Virus record (IMG/VR): IMGVR_UViG_3300035001_000007
Span: 1-38,350 of that record
Strand: one strand, 5' to 3'
Length of the DNA stretch: 38,350 nucleotides
From: a virus
The position numbers and the translations under genes are program-made. This document shows, in pieces, positions 1,308 to 38,350 of this stretch (position 1 is the first letter of the stretch; each line of letters opens with the position of its first letter). Under the pieces are notes generated by a model. It had not been told where the DNA came from, searched no databases, and worked only from the letters and a program-made list of their open reading frames with translations.

Positions 1308-1395
1308 GGAGAGTTGGGTGAGTGGTTTAAACCAGCAGTCTTGAAAACTGCCGACGTGAAAGCGTCCGTGAGTTCGAATCTCACACTCTCCGCCA
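1308..1395 (+). tRNA. tRNA-Ser (anticodon TGA)
   Basis: An 88-base gene including the encoded CCA. The acceptor stem is GGAGAGT (1308-1314) against ACTCTCC (1385-1391), with discriminator G1392 and CCA at 1393-1395. The anticodon stem-loop reads GCAGT-CTTGAAA-ACTGC, giving anticodon TGA for Ser codon UCA. A long variable arm and the T-loop TTCGAAT are visible, as expected for a class II tRNA. tRNA genes of this class are common integration targets, and the integrase gene begins 160 bp downstream in the same direction. Confidence 0.96.
1370..1395 (+). other. Candidate attL (tRNA-Ser 3' end)
   Basis: The T-arm and acceptor 3' strand of the tRNA form the expected left attachment site because the integrase lies directly downstream. 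This is inferred from position only: no second copy of this 3' end was found anywhere to the right in the window, so the core sequence cannot be delimited. Confidence 0.35.
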
Positions 1396-1418
1396 GAATC
1401 CGTCTGTGGCAATTTTTT

Positions 1419-1452
1419 AAAGTCCCGCGCAGTCCATGCGACGGGACTTTTT
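1419..1452 (+). terminator. Rho-independent terminator after tRNA-Ser
   Basis: AAAGTCCCG (1419-1427) pairs perfectly with CGGGACTTT (1442-1450), followed by a run of T to 1452. It ends the tRNA transcript before the integrase. If the element recombines within the tRNA, this terminator lies on the element side of the junction. Confidence 0.8.
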
Positions 1453-1519
1453 CATTGGGGAAAGCGTCCATTTGCATCCAGAAGGGTCTGCCTCAGACCA
1501 TCCCTAGCCAGCTCCCGAT

Positions 1520-1557
1520 CATGGTATCAATCGTGGTATTTTCAAGCCGATACCATG
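1520..1557. promoter_or_regulatory. Inverted repeat over the integrase start (arm-type or autoregulatory site)
   Basis: CATGGTATC (1520-1528) and GATACCATG (1549-1557) are a perfect 9-bp inverted repeat, and a third TGGTAT lies between them at 1534-1539. The right arm contains the integrase ATG (1555). TGGTAT-type repeats in front of integrases with this N-terminal domain are plausibly arm-binding sites of the integrase; binding here would also block its own expression. The function is inferred. Confidence 0.45.
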
Positions 1558-2697
1558 ACCCTCACCGTAAAAGCTGTTGACGCTGCCAAACCGCGAGAGA
1601 AGGCCTACAAGCTGGCCGACGCGCACGGCCTTTATTTGTTCGTCTCGCCGACTGGGGCGAAGAGTTGGCGTGCCAACTTCATCGCCGGCGGGAAGCAGAA
1701 GACGAAGACTTACGGGCTCTACCCTGCGTTGAGCCTGGCCGACGCACGGAAAGAGCATGCTGCCGCCCGAGAAGGGCCGCCGGTCGCCGCGGCGGCGCCC
1801 ACCTTTGAGGTGGTCGCTCGCGATTGGCTCAAGGCGAAGCTGCCTACCCTTTCCAATGGCAAGCATCAGATTCAGGTAGAGAACACCTTGGAGCGGTATG
1901 CATTTCCACTGCTTGGCTCGCGTCCCATCGATGCCATACCGCGTTCGGAGCTGGTCGCGGTGGTACGCGCTGCGCAGGCGGGCGGGAAGATCGAAACCGG
2001 CCATCGCGTGGCGAGCCGCATATCGGCGGTCTTCGACTTCGCGCAAGACACTGGCCTACTTCAGCAGCACGGCGCGGCTGGGTTAACGCGCGTGCTCATC
2101 GCGCGCAAGACGAAGAAGCCTATGGCGAGCATCCCGGCGGAAGATGCCGGCGAGCTGATGCGCGCCATCGATGGCTATGAAGACTCGGTGACTCGACTCG
2201 GTCTGCAGCTACTGGCTCACACGTTCGTTCGGGTCGGCGAGCTGCGGGGCATGCTGTGGGGCGAGCTGAAAGAAAAGGGGGCAGTTTGGGTGGTGCCAGA
2301 GGTGCGCATGAAGATGCGCATTCCGCATGTGGTGCCCCTTTCGCGGCAGGCTCAAGCAATCCTTGCAACGCTGCGCGAGATGAGCGGAGACGGCGCGCTC
2401 GTGCTCGACTCACCGATCCATCCCGGTCATCCGCTGTCGGAGAACACGTTTTTGTTCGCTTTGTACCGCCTGGGTTACCGTGGACGCATGACGGCGCACG
2501 GCTTCCGGGCGTTGGCCTCGACGGTGCTGAATGAGCAATCAGGCTTCCCTCATGACGTCATTGAGCGGCAGCTCGCGCATAAGGAGACCGATGCAGTTCG
2601 CGCGGCATACAACCGCGCGGAATACCTCACCCAGCGCCGTGAACTCATGCAGTGGTGGTCGGACTGGCTCGAATCGGCTCATGGCGGGAGTCGATAG
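1555..2697 (+). CDS. int: Tyrosine integrase (DUF4102-type arm domain)
   Basis: A 380-residue site-specific recombinase. Residues 1-75 match the arm-DNA-binding domain of P4/prophage integrases (KAYKLADAHGLYLFVSPTG, then KTYGLYPALSLADAR). A core-binding SAM-like domain follows at about 83-180. The catalytic residues are present: Arg226 in VRVGELR, His315 and Arg318 in HGFR, His342 in LAHKE and nucleophile Tyr352 in AAYNRAEY. The ATG at 1555 lies in an inverted repeat and lacks a clear ribosome binding site. The position beside tRNA-Ser identifies it as the integrase of this prophage. The candidate excisionase is not adjacent but ends the opposing early operon (4990-5211). Confidence 0.96.
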   Translation: MTLTVKAVDAAKPREKAYKLADAHGLYLFVSPTGAKSWRANFIAGGKQKTKTYGLYPALSLADARKEHAAAREGPPVAAAAPTFEVVARDWLKAKLPTLSNGKHQIQVENTLERYAFPLLGSRPIDAIPRSELVAVVRAAQAGGKIETGHRVASRISAVFDFAQDTGLLQQHGAAGLTRVLIARKTKKPMASIPAEDAGELMRAIDGYEDSVTRLGLQLLAHTFVRVGELRGMLWGELKEKGAVWVVPEVRMKMRIPHVVPLSRQAQAILATLREMSGDGALVLDSPIHPGHPLSENTFLFALYRLGYRGRMTAHGFRALASTVLNEQSGFPHDVIERQLAHKETDAVRAAYNRAEYLTQRRELMQWWSDWLESAHGGSR

Positions 2698-11021: not shown

Positions 11022-11965
11022 GCATCCGGCTAATGACGATGGTTTTCGACCGCTATCCCGAGGGTGGCAGCGAGATGCTGCTCGCTCTGGCGATGGTCGA
11101 TCACGCGCGCGACGACGGCACGAGCATATGGCCCTCGGTCGATGAACTGGCGCGCAAGACACGGCAGAGCCGCCGCACGGTGCAGCGCCAGATCGCCAAG
11201 ATGGTGTCGTCGGGCTGGCTTGAGCAGGTCCGCACTGCCACCGGTCGGCGCGGCCTCACGAACGAGTACCGCGTATGTGCGGCGTGGGTGGCCGGCGAAG
11301 CGCTGCCCGCAACGGGTGCCAATTTGACACCCGTCGAAGACGCCGCTGAAAACGCCACGGGTGGCAGATTGGCACCCGTGCAAACACCCGAAGTTATCCA
11401 CACGGGTGACAGATTGACGCCCCATGAGAAGGGGTCGAGGGGTGACGCCAGTGACGCGAGGGGTGTCACCGGTGACGCGAGGGGTGACACAGCTATGACA
11501 CCCGAATCTTCAGGAACCATCAATAACCATACCCCCCTACCCCCCGGCGGGGAGGCGACCGGGTTCGATGAGCTTTTTGCGATCTACCCGAATCACGACA
11601 ACCGGATGAAGGCAGAACGCCGATACCTTCGTCTTGCGCCGAGCGCCGCGCTGCAGCAAACGATGCGCTCGGCCATCGAGGCCCAAAGGCTTAGCAAGAG
11701 GTGGACAAAGGACGGCGGTGAGTTCGTGCCCGAGTTCGCCACCTGGCTTCGCAATGAGCGGTGGCGCGATGCACCGCGTGTGACGGTCGCGACTGCTGGC
11801 GCATGGCACGAGACGCGCAGCGGCATCGATGCGATGGCGCGCGGACTGGGCCTCGATGCATGGGATGAGGCTGCGTTTTCGATGGGGCGGGGCGAGAGCT
11901 ACATCGCCTTCACCGCACGGGTGCGGCGTGCCGCAGAGAAGGCGGGGGAGGCGGTATGCGCGTGA
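11018..11965 (+). CDS. Replication initiation-like protein with winged helix
   Basis: A 315-residue protein. Residues 15-75 form a winged helix-turn-helix (WPSVDELARKTRQSRRTVQ, then LEQVRTATGRRGLTNEYRV), as in phage O-type replication proteins. The middle (about 100-145) holds three 15-residue repeats of the type ATGxxLTPxxx, which are the translation of DNA iterons. The C-terminal third (FDELFAIYPNHDNRMKAERR onward) resembles the domain found at the end of many phage replication proteins. It follows the CII-like gene through a 15-codon coupling frame. An adjacent helicase or DnaC-like gene is not present, so host helicase loading would be needed. It overlaps the next gene by 10 bp. Confidence 0.78.
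   Translation: MSIRLMTMVFDRYPEGGSEMLLALAMVDHARDDGTSIWPSVDELARKTRQSRRTVQRQIAKMVSSGWLEQVRTATGRRGLTNEYRVCAAWVAGEALPATGANLTPVEDAAENATGGRLAPVQTPEVIHTGDRLTPHEKGSRGDASDARGVTGDARGDTAMTPESSGTINNHTPLPPGGEATGFDELFAIYPNHDNRMKAERRYLRLAPSAALQQTMRSAIEAQRLSKRWTKDGGEFVPEFATWLRNERWRDAPRVTVATAGAWHETRSGIDAMARGLGLDAWDEAAFSMGRGESYIAFTARVRRAAEKAGEAVCA
11312..11486. other. Candidate phage replication origin (iterons and DnaA box)
   Basis: Inside the replication gene. Three near-palindromic iterons ACGGGTG-N9-CACCCGT start at 11312, 11357 and 11402, exactly 45 bp apart (the third has degenerate right arm CGCCCCA). A perfect DnaA box TTATCCACA lies at 11394-11402, abutting the third. Then GAGGGGTG repeats start at 11437, 11458 and 11479, exactly 21 bp apart. 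A less GC-rich stretch follows at about 11505-11535. An origin within the initiator gene is the arrangement of lambda. Confidence 0.7.
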
Positions 11966-35149: not shown

Positions 35150-35328
35150 GGACCGCCGCCGTCTTTGTGCTGTTGCTGCTGCTGCAGGCCTGCGCGGCAC
35201 CGGCGGCGCCCGTGGGTGACTGCCCGCCCATCCCGGTGCTTCCCGCCAAACCCACTCCAGCGCAGCGAGGCCAGCACACCGAGGCGCTCGTGGCGCTGTA
35301 TCTGCGATGCGCAGGCGTCACCGAATGA
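35146..35328 (+). CDS. Small lipoprotein in lysis cassette
   Basis: A 60-residue lipoprotein. The signal sequence MRTAAVFVLLLLLQAC ends in a lipobox-like LQAC with Cys16. The mature part is Pro-rich with a further Cys26 and Cys56. It lies between the membrane proteins and the endolysin and overlaps both neighbours by 4 bp. It is a second lipoprotein besides the Rz1-like one; it could be an extra outer-membrane spanin part or a lysogenic conversion lipoprotein. Confidence 0.65.
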   Translation: MRTAAVFVLLLLLQACAAPAAPVGDCPPIPVLPAKPTPAQRGQHTEALVALYLRCAGVTE

Positions 35329-35942
35329 CCGAACGAACCACCGGAACCCAACACACCATGATCGACACACAGACCCTTATCGATTGCACCGGCGCCGCGC
35401 GCGGCGATGCTGAGCGCTACACGTTGCACCTTGCGGACGGGATGAACCGCTTCGGGATTCATTCCGCCAACACGATGGCCGTCTTCCTCGGGCAGCTCGC
35501 CATTGAATCCGACGAGCTGCAGAAGGTTGAAGAGAACCTCAACTACACCACGCCGGGGCGGCTGCGCGAGATCTTTCCCAGCCTCTTCGTCAAGGGCGGC
35601 TATAGGGCCGAAGAGTACGTGCGCAATCCCCGCGGGCTGAGCATGCTTCGCTACAAAGGCTTTCACGGCCGTGGCCTCATCCAGTTGACCTGGGAGGATG
35701 CTTACATCGCTGCCGGCCATGCACTGGGCGCTGACTTCCGCCGCAATCCCGAGCTGCTGCTGCAGCCGCACTACGCGGCGCAGTCGGCGTGTTGGTTTTT
35801 TGCGGTGTTCAAGAACTGCCTGCCCGCGGCGGAGCGCGGCGATGTGTACGACGTGACGGGGCGCGTGAACGGCCCGGCACGGCTGAAACTGGCGGAGCGC
35901 AAGGCAAATACCGCGCGCGCGTACAAGGTGCTGAGCCAATGA
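35325..35942 (+). CDS. Endolysin, glycoside hydrolase family 19
   Basis: About 205 residues. The catalytic region has FLGQLAIESDELQKVEENLN, where the usual His-Glu-Ser is Ile-Glu-Ser and Glu61 is kept, and KGFHGRGLIQLTWEDAY, the GH19 substrate-binding signature. The enzyme would cut the sugar backbone of peptidoglycan. There is no signal peptide, so it needs a holin. ATG 35325 overlaps the lipoprotein stop (ATGA) and is reported; the ATG at 35358 (MIDTQTLI) matches the family start better and may be used. It overlaps the Rz-like gene by 4 bp. Confidence 0.9.
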   Translation: MTERTTGTQHTMIDTQTLIDCTGAARGDAERYTLHLADGMNRFGIHSANTMAVFLGQLAIESDELQKVEENLNYTTPGRLREIFPSLFVKGGYRAEEYVRNPRGLSMLRYKGFHGRGLIQLTWEDAYIAAGHALGADFRRNPELLLQPHYAAQSACWFFAVFKNCLPAAERGDVYDVTGRVNGPARLKLAERKANTARAYKVLSQ

Positions 35943-36292
35943 GCCTCATACAAGCCTTGTTGGTTGCACTCGGCGTGAGTGTGGCCGGAAATGCCGTGCT
36001 CGGTTGGGCGTGGGTGGGGGCGCGAGAGAGGGCCGCGACGACAATCGTCGAGCGAGACAGCGCACGCTCGGCCGCCTCTGCGTGCAGCGACGCGACCGAT
36101 GACCTTCGAGAGCTGGCAGACAAGCGCGGCGCCGAAGCGAAGAAAGCGCAAGCCGCGGCCCGCGTCGCGGCAGCGGGGCGACAGCAGGCCGCTCGCGCCA
36201 TCCTGAGCGCCCCGCCGGCGGTGCCTGGGGACGCCTGCGCAAGCGCGCAGGTCCGCATTGATGCGTGGCTGAGGGGGAGGGTGCGACCATGA
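35939..36292 (+). CDS. Rz-like inner-membrane spanin
   Basis: A 117-residue protein. A membrane anchor at 4-24 (IQALLVALGVSVAGNAVLGW) is followed by a periplasmic helix rich in Ala, Arg and Glu. This is the i-spanin layout. The ATG at 35939 overlaps the endolysin stop by 4 bp, and the gene overlaps the Rz1-like gene by 4 bp; the frame is open further upstream inside the endolysin gene but without a signal peptide. With the Rz1-like lipoprotein it would fuse the two membranes in lysis. Confidence 0.78.
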   Translation: MSLIQALLVALGVSVAGNAVLGWAWVGARERAATTIVERDSARSAASACSDATDDLRELADKRGAEAKKAQAAARVAAAGRQQAARAILSAPPAVPGDACASAQVRIDAWLRGRVRP

Positions 36293-36558
36293 GGCGTTAC
36301 GCGCTCCTGGCGGCTGTCGTGACCCTTGCCGGGTCACTTGCGGCGTGTGGGGTGGTCCCGATCCAGACGGTTAAGGTGCCGGTCCCTGTGGAATGTCGCG
36401 CAGAGTCGCCGACGCGGCCGGCTATGCCGACCGAAGCGCTTTCGCCTGGCGTGGACCCGGACCGGTTCACTGCCTCGGCGATGGCCGAGATCGAGCTTCG
36501 CGAGGGTTACGAGGGAGAGCTTCGGGCGGCGCTGGAGGCGTGCACCTCGCCCCTCTGA
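36289..36558 (+). CDS. Rz1-like outer-membrane spanin lipoprotein
   Basis: An 89-residue lipoprotein. The signal sequence ends in LAAC with lipid-attachment Cys20. The mature part is short and begins with Pro/Val-rich IQTVKVPVPVECR, a common o-spanin feature. Its ATG overlaps the Rz-like stop by 4 bp. It is the last certain phage gene; a convergent gene ends only 7 bp beyond it, with no visible terminator between. Confidence 0.75.
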   Translation: MRRYALLAAVVTLAGSLAACGVVPIQTVKVPVPVECRAESPTRPAMPTEALSPGVDPDRFTASAMAEIELREGYEGELRAALEACTSPL

Positions 36559-36565
36559 GCAAGGG

Positions 36566-37030
36566 TCACGGCCGAAGGGTGGAGCGTTTGATGGATTCCA
36601 TCTGGTGCTGGGCGATCGCATGCCCAGCTTCAGCGGCTCGAGCGAGCCAACTTAATCCCATGTTCTCGCTCTTGGGTACGCCGTGCCCGCCAAAGTGGCA
36701 GGTGCCGAGCCAATGCATCGCGTCAGCGTTCTTCTGGGCTGCTGCCGCGCTCAGCCAGTAGACCGCTGCCCCAAATTCGCCAGCGGTGTAGAACATTTCT
36801 CCCACGTCCGCTTGAGCATCGGACTGACCAGCGTCAGCCCGGATCAGCATCTCTAGATCCTCATCGTCGAGCGGAAACGAGATGAGGTCTACGACGGCAG
36901 AGAGGGACAGCATCGCCCGTCCGCGATCTTCTTCTCGCTTCGGTATGGTGCCTTCGGTAACCCTTCGCCAGAGCGTTCTTCGGCTGAGCCCGGTCATCGC
37001 CACGGCTGCTTCAAGGCTTATCGCGTCCAT
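36566..37030 (-). CDS. HTH and Sel1-repeat protein
   Basis: About 154 residues. Residues 5-25 (SLEAAVAMTGLSRRTLWRRV) form a helix-turn-helix. The C-terminal half (about 70-150) carries Sel1/TPR repeats (AQADVGEMFYTAGEFGAAVYW, then AMHWLGTCHFGGHGVPKSEN), which mediate protein contacts. Start at 37030 is chosen because AGGAAA lies six bases upstream; ATG 37036 and 37102 are in frame but poorly placed. It is divergent from the pilin gene across an intergenic region with repeated TGGCAC elements, so it may regulate the pilin. It may be host or the last gene of the element. Confidence 0.75.
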   Translation of the reverse strand: MDAISLEAAVAMTGLSRRTLWRRVTEGTIPKREEDRGRAMLSLSAVVDLISFPLDDEDLEMLIRADAGQSDAQADVGEMFYTAGEFGAAVYWLSAAAAQKNADAMHWLGTCHFGGHGVPKSENMGLSWLARAAEAGHAIAQHQMESIKRSTLRP

Positions 37031-37249
37031 TCCCATTTTCCTATCGTAACGTTTTGGCACAATCAGTTGCATGCCGTGGCACTCTACTTTGCGTGCCACC
37101 ATCCAAATGGCACGGTGTTTTCATGCGCTGCGGCGACGATATAGAGCCCTAAAGTTCTCAGTTGTCCATGGACATGAGCTGGTCTATTCATTGCAAGAAG
37201 TATCACGCACTGCGCAGCAGGCAAGTTTTTCCAACCAGGAGTTTTTCAC
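37031..37249. promoter_or_regulatory. Divergent promoter region with TGGCAC repeats
   Basis: A 219-bp region between the HTH-Sel1 and pilin genes. TGGCAC occurs at 37055, 37077 and 37108, and its inverse GTGCCA at 37093-37098. The first two are each followed by six bases and TTGC, 22 bp apart. TGGCAC is the -24 element of sigma-54 promoters, but the spacing to the GC element is one base too long, so this may instead be a regulator binding array. AGGAG precedes the pilin start. Confidence 0.5.
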
Positions 37250-37753
37250 ATGAATCGTCGTAACTTCGCTCGCCGCGCTCAGGCCGGCTTCACCCTTATC
37301 GAACTGATGATCGTCGTGGCGATCATCGGCATCTTGGCCGCCATCGCTATCCCACAGTACCAAACTTACGTCGCCAAGTCGCAGGTCTCGCGCGTGATTG
37401 GTGAGACGGGTACCCAAAAGACTGCCGTGGAAGACTGCGTGAACAATGGCAAGCTGGCGACCGGTGCGACGGCATGTGCTGGTACGGCCACGGGCTCGAA
37501 TCTCATCGTGACGACCGGCAGCAACACCGTCAATGGCGGCGCACCTGGAACGGGTCTTGGCGCACCGATTCTGGCTTTCACCGGCACGGACGGCACGGCG
37601 AGCCTCACCTCGGAGTTTGGCAACAGCGCCGCAGCTGTGATCGCCGGCAAGAAGATCGTCTGGAACCGTACTACTGACGGCACGTGGACCTGCACGTCGG
37701 ACGTCCCGAAGAAGTACGAACAAGTGTCCTGCCCGACGACTTCGACGACCTAA
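37250..37753 (+). CDS. pilA: Type IV major pilin
   Basis: A 167-residue type IVa pilin. A 13-residue leader ends in Gly13, followed by [20 protein letters not shown]: the cut by prepilin peptidase leaves N-methyl-Phe, and Glu18 is the conserved Glu5 of the mature form. The variable beta domain has cysteines near the C-terminus ([18 protein letters not shown]) that form the usual D-region disulfide. AGGAG lies nine bases before the ATG. The protein forms surface pili for twitching, adhesion and as phage receptor. It is followed by a good terminator and stands alone as a single-gene unit. Confidence 0.93.
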
Positions 37754-37771
37754 GTCTCTCGGTCGTTCGCC

Positions 37772-37794
37772 AAGCCGCCTTCGGGCGGCTTTTT
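37772..37794 (+). terminator. Rho-independent terminator of pilA
   Basis: AAGCCGCC (37772-37779) and GGCGGCTT (37784-37791) form an 8-bp stem with loop TTCG and a following T run to 37794. The inverse side would also serve the convergent gene. Confidence 0.9.
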
Positions 37795-37813
37795 CATTGT
37801 GCGCTCCTGCTTC

Positions 37814-38350
37814 TTAGTGGAAGGGCTTCTGTTCGAGGTCACCGAACAACGCGGCAAGCGCTGCTAGTGCTTTTTCGGCCGTGTCCTCGATCCGCACCGA
37901 GCATGCAAGCATCAGGTTCAGCGGCAGGTCGAAGTCCTCAACCACGTAGTTCTTCGGGTCACGCAGCACACCGTTCGTGCGCACGACCCTCATGAGCTGA
38001 CGCACACGCGCCGCATAGGTGTTGCTGACGCCATAAGCCACCACGGGCAGTCCCATCGCGACCGCCACGCCGACTTCGAATACGGTGCCGGAGTCGGGTT
38101 CGGTGCCTCGGAACGGCTCCAGATTGGCGATGACCCCGTCGGCCTGGCTGAGCCTAGTCATGTTCGTGTCGAAGATGTACTGGGCCTCTTTGCCGATGGC
38201 TGTGATGGGCGGCATTCCGTCGGAGGGCGGCAGCGCCTCCAGCCCCGCCGCTTCGCAGAACAGCACCAAGCTATGCATGTGCGCCGCGGCATCGAGCCGG
38301 AAGACATCCGGGCCGGCGAGATAGATGCGCGGACGGGCGGGAATGACCAT
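37814..38350 (-). CDS. Nucleoside 2-deoxyribosyltransferase
   Basis: A 178-residue enzyme of the nucleoside 2-deoxyribosyltransferase family, which exchanges bases on deoxyribose. The family motifs are IYLAGPDVF (9-17), DGVIANLEPFRGTEPDSGT (71-89) and FEVGVAVAMGLPVVAY with candidate catalytic Glu92. Length is typical. It begins at the last base of the window, so its upstream region is not visible. It converges on pilA. It is probably a chromosomal salvage gene on the right flank. Confidence 0.88.
   Translation of the reverse strand: MVIPARPRIYLAGPDVFRLDAAAHMHSLVLFCEAAGLEALPPSDGMPPITAIGKEAQYIFDTNMTRLSQADGVIANLEPFRGTEPDSGTVFEVGVAVAMGLPVVAYGVSNTYAARVRQLMRVVRTNGVLRDPKNYVVEDFDLPLNLMLACSVRIEDTAEKALAALAALFGDLEQKPFH

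Follow-up and report, generated by a model that had tools for sequence, protein, structure and literature searches.

TGGCAC inverted repeats between a divergent HTH-Sel1 gene and a prophage pilin gene form a candidate enhancer of a sigma-54-type pilin promoter

Between a gene for a small helix-turn-helix protein with Sel1 repeats (HTH-Sel1) and a divergently transcribed type IV pilin gene (pilA), a viral DNA carries a cluster of TGGCAC hexamers, which raises the question of which protein reads them and which of the two genes they serve. The window analyzed is the whole of an IMG/VR virus record, 38,350 bases long. As the sequence-only reading had located them, the hexamers lie at 37055, 37077, and 37108 on the plus strand and at 37093 on the minus strand. 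TGGCAC occurs 24 times in the whole window (24.8 expected), and with uniform placement the probability that four of the 24 copies fall inside 59 bp is approximately 1.2e-4, which ruled out chance clustering.

The array consists of two tandem 22-bp inverted repeats, 37055-37098, plus one half-site. Operator 1 (37055-37076, plus strand) has the form TGGCAC-N10-ATGCCG and shares its 22-bp tandem form with locus L199; operator 2 (37077-37098, plus strand) is a perfect inverted repeat, TGGCAC-N10-GTGCCA; the third TGGCAC (37108-37113, plus strand) is a single half-site. The left arms of the tandem repeats account for the two direct copies spaced by 22 bp, and the right arm of operator 2 for the inverted copy at 37093. 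Elsewhere in the window, at 11312-11379, two nearly palindromic arms of 23 bp, ACGGGTGCCAATTTGACACCCGT and a close variant of it, are separated by 22 bp and resemble the operator pair of a phage repressor.

Another virus record, L003, repeats the order of lysis genes, HTH-Sel1, pilA, and a nucleoside 2-deoxyribosyltransferase gene (NDT), with protein identities to the window of 89% for HTH-Sel1 and 56% for the pilin. All four hexamers, the loss of which was to count against their being regulatory, are present in this record, the only close relative found. Repeat 1 is identical at 21 of 22 positions, repeat 2 at 17 of 22 with both 6-bp arms intact and a different spacer, and the third hexamer at 6 of 6; identity is 1 of 9 in the 9 bp before the third hexamer and 30 of 66 in the 66 bp after it. 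The proposal of an operator array held up. Within the pilin gene, DNA identity to L003 fell from 86% in the first 150 bases to 51% in the remainder; set beside 84% for the regulator gene and 95% for operator 1, the 51% of the variable part (37400-37750) fits, as expected, a surface protein under changing selection.

The hexamers had also been read as sigma-54 elements with one extra base. TGGCAC-N6-TTGC does occur twice, at 37055 and 37077, and a search of the whole window for TGGCAC-N5or6-TTGC returned these two matches, both N6, where 0.20 were expected. We give this explanation hardly any credence and rejected it, since the second TTGC is lost in L003 while the inverted arms are kept, and a correctly spaced promoter lies downstream. 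This pilA -24/-12 element, TGGTCTATTCATTGC (37180-37194, plus strand), has the normal GG-N10-GC spacing; it reads TGGTCT-N5-TTGCA (37180-37195) in the window and TGGCCC-N5-TTGCA in L003, and is situated 70-115 bp downstream of the TGGCAC array. A standard sigma-70 promoter downstream of the hexamers, named beforehand as evidence against a regulatory array, was not seen, no sigma-70-like site being found in 36950-37300. With the sigma-54 consensus taken from general knowledge and a permissive pattern, a sigma-54-like element was found between HTH-Sel1 and the pilin gene in 37 of 38 loci, prevailingly of the form TGGCA(C/T)-N5-nTGC, compared with a mean of 0.8 loci and a maximum of 4 when the 110 bp in question were shuffled by mononucleotide. 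Elements resembling TGGCA(C/T)-N5-nTGC also precede pilin genes in the virus records L002, L004, L005, L009, L011, L014, and L017; L002 has two pilin genes in tandem and, just upstream, a different regulator-like gene (HTH_3 plus NinX domain). A pilin carried as cargo together with a local regulator may have more than one origin.

The HTH-Sel1 gene (36566-37030, minus strand) encodes 154 residues in a reading frame open to 37102. The long start at 37102 was rejected because of an in-frame TGA in L003, and since the start at 37030 (MDAISLEA...) fits, the array is intergenic; operator 1 begins 25 bp from this start codon, and the repeats span 25-68 bp upstream of it. The AlphaFold model of the protein (pLDDT 94.7) comprised a winged HTH at approximately residues 3-47 and Sel1 helices at 56-152. 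The Sel1 repeat (PF08238) scored 39.6 bits against a cut-off of 30.7, and the best fold matches were Sel1 proteins. HTH_17 (PF12728) scored 17.6 bits for the window protein, below the cut-off of 27, and matched 6 of 15 members at E<=0.1; MerR-type folds matched the model only at E ~0.1, and no NCBIfam match was found for the window protein. The N-terminal position of the HTH is shared with small winged HTH (HTH_17) proteins of the AlpA, excisionase, and MerR types, from which HTH-Sel1 differs in its fused Sel1 repeats and in that no effector or recombination role was seen. The domains found were the winged HTH and the Sel1 repeats only; because it has no AAA+ sigma-54-interaction domain, HTH-Sel1 cannot itself open a sigma-54 promoter.

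The two genes most probably lie within the prophage. At the left end of the window (attL side), a hemN-like gene is found with a tRNA-Ser and a tyrosine integrase gene (1308-2697, plus strand, the tRNA-Ser itself at 1308-1395). At the right end, the phage lysis cassette (35307-36558, plus strand), consisting of an endolysin gene (Glyco_hydro_19 by Pfam) and two genes named Rz-like and outer spanin-like by position and by eye, borders the pilin cassette; HTH-Sel1 on the minus strand, pilA (37250-37753, plus strand, PF07963 and PF00114), and NDT, a phage accessory gene (37814-38350, minus strand), follow in that order. The hemN-like protein was nearest to that of genome G111 (73% identity) and then G001 (70%), which contains the Rhodoferax MAG locus L144, among 185 genomes of one class, which suggests a host in the Burkholderiales.

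Two readings of the right end were weighed, host flank beyond attR and phage cargo. No repeat of at least 12 bp was found between 1250-1560 and 35900-38350, and attR therefore probably lies beyond the window. NDT relatives in the related phages L243 (55% identity) and L247 (57%) are located between the lysis genes and the integrase gene (Pfam-confirmed in both, partial in L243), which is the order of the window prophage once circularized. Given this NDT position and the lack of an end repeat, a host flank is unlikely, and the cassette is most probably phage cargo in this window, attR itself being out of view; the suspected link between the pilin locus and the prophage thereby gained substance, as the cassette, between the lysis cassette and NDT, most probably lies inside the prophage. 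The hemN neighborhoods of two relatives contained no HTH-Sel1, pilA, or NDT gene, a weak comparison as no tRNA was found there either (ARAGORN), and the far end of the L003 record (L248) yielded no tRNA and no match to the window integrase, hemN, or the other proteins tested.

Of 27 endolysin relatives found, the seven inspected on the right side have different cargo behind the lysis genes, including NDT in L243. The stretch behind the lysis genes varies in the phage group L225, L239, L240, L243, and L247: L225 carries a UmuC-type polymerase (IMS) and a TIR/DnaB-like protein, L240 SRAP, and L243 and L247 NDT, the remaining cargo being named by eye only. In L163 the pilin cassette adjoins an endolysin and an Rz-like gene, and in L008 it lies approximately 3 kb from replication genes. 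Its position between lysis genes and accessory NDT resembles that of lysogenic-conversion genes (morons), from which it differs in carrying a type IV pilin together with a dedicated regulator.

Linkage of the two genes extends well beyond the window. Searches by HTH-Sel1 alone gave 52 loci, and in 50 of them HTH-Sel1 adjoins a pilin gene, recognized by a GFTLIE-type N-terminal motif (7 of 8, 23 of 24, and 20 of 20 in the separate batches), divergently in 44 (6, 21, and 17). The exceptions were L184, with no pilin within ~1.5 kb, and the truncated L207; in L172 the pilin lies at 1.05 kb. Distribution of HTH-Sel1 is patchy, with at least 5 of 369 genomes in one class, at least 23 of 399 in one family, and at least 21 of 343 in another, counts that include the center genome and, for three of the last 21, rest on Sel1-only matches; the sample of the order of G326 comprised only 4 genomes. 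Sel1-domain-only matches (L271-L273) and weaker Sel1-only matches were dropped, as were L254, L276, and L278, which repeat known loci. HTH-Sel1 is rare in virus records: an alignment search of 2.9 million IMG/VR contigs gave 11 usable matches (12 contigs matched, and L173, a 31-residue match, was dropped), and the named phage collection gave no full-length match and 4 partial ones. In 11 of 24 HTH-Sel1 genomes no PF00114 pilin other than the linked one was found, so the latter is not merely accessory.

The repeats travel with this gene pair. The pattern TGNCRC-N7-11-GYGNCA, which was written after viewing the loci and matched 17 of 21 in the later-found set, occurred in 28 of 38 divergent HTH-Sel1 loci and in 1 of 58 control pilin promoters (Fisher 9e-15; related loci, including the near-identical L201-L203, L211/L212, and L071/L172, are not independent). 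The 38 comprise 17 loci from early searches, many found via the pilin, and 21 found later; L042 (same intergenic sequence as L043), L164, L184, L192, L196, and L207 are outside this set. The 58 controls are those of 95 candidate loci with a sigma-54-like element and 190 clean bases, and their lack of HTH-Sel1 was judged on the available flanks only. The repeats as a general feature of pilin promoters were rejected on the control count; 10 of the 38 HTH-Sel1 loci have no 6-mer repeat. Perfect inverted repeats with 6-bp arms of any sequence, counted with overlapping registers and compared with shuffles, numbered 117 against 20.8 expected in HTH-Sel1 loci and 73 against 31.2 in controls. The operator repeats lie a median of 96 bp upstream of the -24 element (~60-145 bp from the 10th to the 90th percentile).

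In a second HTH-Sel1 family, that of G002, the 6-mer pattern matched 3 of 20 loci. A 5-mer pattern chosen after this failure was seen, TGNCR-N11-13-YGNCA, matched 13 of 17 divergent loci of that family (shuffle mean 0.34), with 22 of 28 spacings at 12-13, compared with 6 of 58 controls (shuffle mean 1.7) and 27 of 38 loci of the first set.

The identity of the binder is suggested by co-variation. When alignment columns of HTH-Sel1 were ranked by association with the half-site class of each locus, residue 21 came first of 148 (z 10.9, 31 loci; classes assigned by eye from counts, with ties or near-ties in L043, L144, and L200). Left out of the 31 were L117 and L182, which have no clear class, and the near copies L023, L172, L202, L203, and L212. 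Residue 21 also ranked first after thinning to 24 loci (z 5.4), without the TGTCCA class, and with automatic majority classes in which TGTCAC and TGACAC were merged (z 10.8). Loci with W21 have TGGCAC (11), TGTCAC (5), or TGACAC (1) half-sites, those with Q21 TGTCGC (8) or TGTCAC (2), those with R21 TGTCCA (3), and the one with M21 TGTCAC; all 11 TGGCAC loci have W21 and all 8 TGTCGC loci have Q21. The residue lies in the second helix (17-26), the predicted recognition helix of the winged HTH in the AlphaFold model, and columns 17-26 outscored the rest in four versions of the comparison (p 0.017, 0.0018, 0.028, and 0.029). Some Sel1-domain columns, e.g. 92, score high too; because shared ancestry raises all columns, the ranking and not the z-value is what counts here. 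Six divergent W loci of the second family carry at least two TGGCAC and none is of the TGTCGC class, and R-type loci have mostly TGNCAG-like arms. Since half-site type tracks residue 21, HTH-Sel1 very probably binds the TGGCAC repeats, which strengthens its earlier nomination as the candidate regulator.

Which promoter the bound protein would serve was addressed with loci in which the two genes are not divergent. On the plasmids pA6H3, pA62H1, and pA46H2 (L249-L251), HTH-Sel1 and the pilin gene are in tandem, and the sites lie just upstream of the sigma-54-like element of the pilin gene: two plasmids have a perfect TGGCAC-N10-GTGCCA and the third has one mismatch, and no TGKCRC half-site was found in the 260 bp upstream of HTH-Sel1 in any of them. 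In L192, three TGGCAC precede the pilin gene without a pattern repeat, and one isolated match lies in the 350 bp before HTH-Sel1. Of the tandem loci in the second family, L265 and L267 have TGGCAG-N11-CTGCCA and L269 a GTGCCA/TGGCAC pair upstream of the pilin gene, and no 6-mer pattern repeat was found upstream of HTH-Sel1 in these three. Neither gene is preceded by a repeat in L164 (tandem) or L196 (convergent). The divergent arrangement recurs on a fourth plasmid (Aquincola), there with TGTCAC-N10-GTGACA. On the whole, these loci point to the pilin promoter as the one that the array serves. The start of operator 1 so near the HTH-Sel1 start codon in the window would also suit sites that serve HTH-Sel1 autoregulation only; this is very improbable given L249-L251, L192, L265, and L267, where the sites are upstream of the pilin gene and the HTH-Sel1 side has at most isolated half-sites.

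The array may take the place of another site. Unexpectedly, the palindrome TGAC[AG]-N5-[CT]GTCA (TGACR-N5-YGTCA) was found in 33 of 58 control pilin promoters, Pseudomonas cerasi among them, approximately 90 bp upstream of -24, and in none of 55 HTH-Sel1 loci, the window included (Fisher on exact matches 5e-13); with one mismatch allowed, the counts were 40 of 58 and 4 of 55. In the control set (L002-L161), it is a candidate general PilR enhancer motif, and its position suggests that PilR binds it. The hallmarks given for P. aeruginosa in excerpts of PMC6058289, TGT-N11-AGA and GTCT, differ from it. Of eight stretches read in search of unlinked pilins, two contained no pilin motif. A second, unlinked pilin has the palindrome in G001, G446, and G566 (in G566 without a sigma-54-like match); G504 and G506, with a normal PilR HTH, have a readable unlinked pilin without it, and the second pilin of G597, with a degenerate PilR HTH, has neither palindrome nor sigma-54-like element.

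Divergent regulators are often autorepressors. HTH-Sel1 could thus bind the array as a local repressor, turning off its own promoter and keeping a PilR-type activator from the pilin enhancer region; the repeats lie close upstream of its start and, by their median distance from -24, where an enhancer is expected. We regard repression as unlikely, although it is the most serious of the rivals: with no palindrome in 55 of 55 HTH-Sel1 loci there is no obvious competitor site, the tandem arrangements lack a repeat upstream of HTH-Sel1, and the PilR HTH decays in HTH-Sel1 genomes.

This decay was seen in the AAA+ gene beside a PilS-type sensor gene, taken as PilR. PilS-type sensor domains were found in 23 of 24 HTH-Sel1 genomes, 20 over the cut-off, and PilS-type and AAA+ genes are close together in all 22 genomes read (the 24 minus G002 and G541, the latter without a PilS match). 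A C-terminal HTH signature, set after reading the sequences (a shorter-gap version matched 0 of 20 and 1 of 22), was present in 20 of 20 controls and 12 of 22 HTH-Sel1 genomes (Fisher 6e-4), the HTH being degenerate in 0 and 10, respectively; the controls were 20 of 45 genomes in one family sample, with PilS and without an HTH-Sel1 match. Among 18 and 17 proteins compared, HTH scores were lower in HTH-Sel1 genomes (p 0.003) and AAA+ scores were alike (p 0.67). The AAA+ tree implies 5 changes between the canonical and the degenerate state, of which well-supported branches force at least 3. In 9 of 10 genomes with a degenerate PilR HTH, compared with 6 of 12 others, every pilin found was linked to HTH-Sel1. 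Such decay would be expected if HTH-Sel1 brings PilR to the promoter.

The presence of PilS-type sensors, and repeats at enhancer distance from a sigma-54 promoter, would also agree with PilR or another host activator binding the array while HTH-Sel1 is a passenger. That is quite improbable, since such repeats occur in only 1 of 58 pilin promoters without HTH-Sel1 and residue 21 of HTH-Sel1 tracks the half-site class best of all 148 columns.

The reading that we favor, with slightly more confidence than doubt, is that the array is a sigma-54 pilin enhancer at which HTH-Sel1 acts as an adaptor for a PilR-type activator, replacing the usual palindrome. The divergently encoded HTH-Sel1 would bind the array, its recognition helix reading the TGGCAC half-sites in the 22-bp inverted repeats, and the array would act as the enhancer (operator array) of the sigma-54-dependent pilin promoter. 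The Sel1 repeats would hold the PilR-type AAA+ activator there, directly or through a partner, and this enhancer would stand in for the palindrome that other pilin promoters often carry. The repeats, their conservation, pilin linkage, co-variation of HTH and operator, exclusion of the palindrome, and decay of the PilR HTH (10 of 22) are well supported at the sequence level; from them we infer that HTH-Sel1 binds the array, that it contacts PilR, that it activates and does not repress, and any benefit to the phage. An adaptor is unneeded in 12 of 22 HTH-Sel1 genomes, because the PilR HTH is normal there. Sigma-54 enhancer-binding activators normally carry their own DNA-binding domain. A tentative extension, which we hold somewhat less likely to be right than wrong, is a split activator, the DNA-binding part of PilR having moved to the HTH-Sel1 adaptor and the PilR HTH having decayed on several independent occasions, chiefly in genomes in which no pilin other than an HTH-Sel1-linked one was found.

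Compared with PilS/PilR-sigma-54 control of pilA, the proposed arrangement shares the sigma-54-like element with sites ~60-145 bp upstream; it differs in lacking the palindrome, in its likely binder, a small HTH protein encoded separately, and in the HTH of the AAA+ protein, which is degenerate in 10 of 22. The closest described systems are the PIL modules of the Antarctic Pseudomonas plasmids pA6H3, pA46H2, and pA62H1, which have a like HTH-Sel1 gene, a pilin gene, and a sigma-54-like element and differ from the window in that the genes are in tandem and on a plasmid. A PilSR system is not expected in E. coli. Against the adaptor stands the finding that adherence of E. coli rose with two of three plasmid PIL modules, according to excerpts of PMC6896180. 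Vector promoters may explain this effect. The plasmids are nearly identical outside the module, with pilins 44-70% identical (same excerpts of PMC6896180); the word Sel1 is absent from the main text of that paper, in which the regulator of the module and its sites appear undescribed. In open-licence literature, no paper on a phage-encoded pilin was found with exact phrases and no evident match for Sel1-type pilin regulators, and a pilin search of 50,697 named phage records gave two matches, both 'Acinetobacter phage MD-2021a' (240 kb, 43% identity).

The cassette thus seems widespread and mobile, as prophage cargo here and on plasmids elsewhere, with the usual pilin switch replaced. Regulator, enhancer, promoter, and pilin would form one cassette inside the prophage, and a lysogen would therefore gain a separately controlled pilin. 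If true, DNA binding passed on repeatedly to a small adaptor protein would rewire a textbook system in a new way; regulator evolution would have run its own natural experiment, and residue 21 would supply a specificity code open to direct testing. With enhancer, adaptor, and pilin moving as one unit, a phage or plasmid could plug a foreign pilin into the PilSR of a new host while addressing only its own promoter. The mobile cassette would then alter the host pilus, a common phage receptor, and a phage- or plasmid-borne pilin with its own enhancer would be a concrete route by which mobile elements change it.
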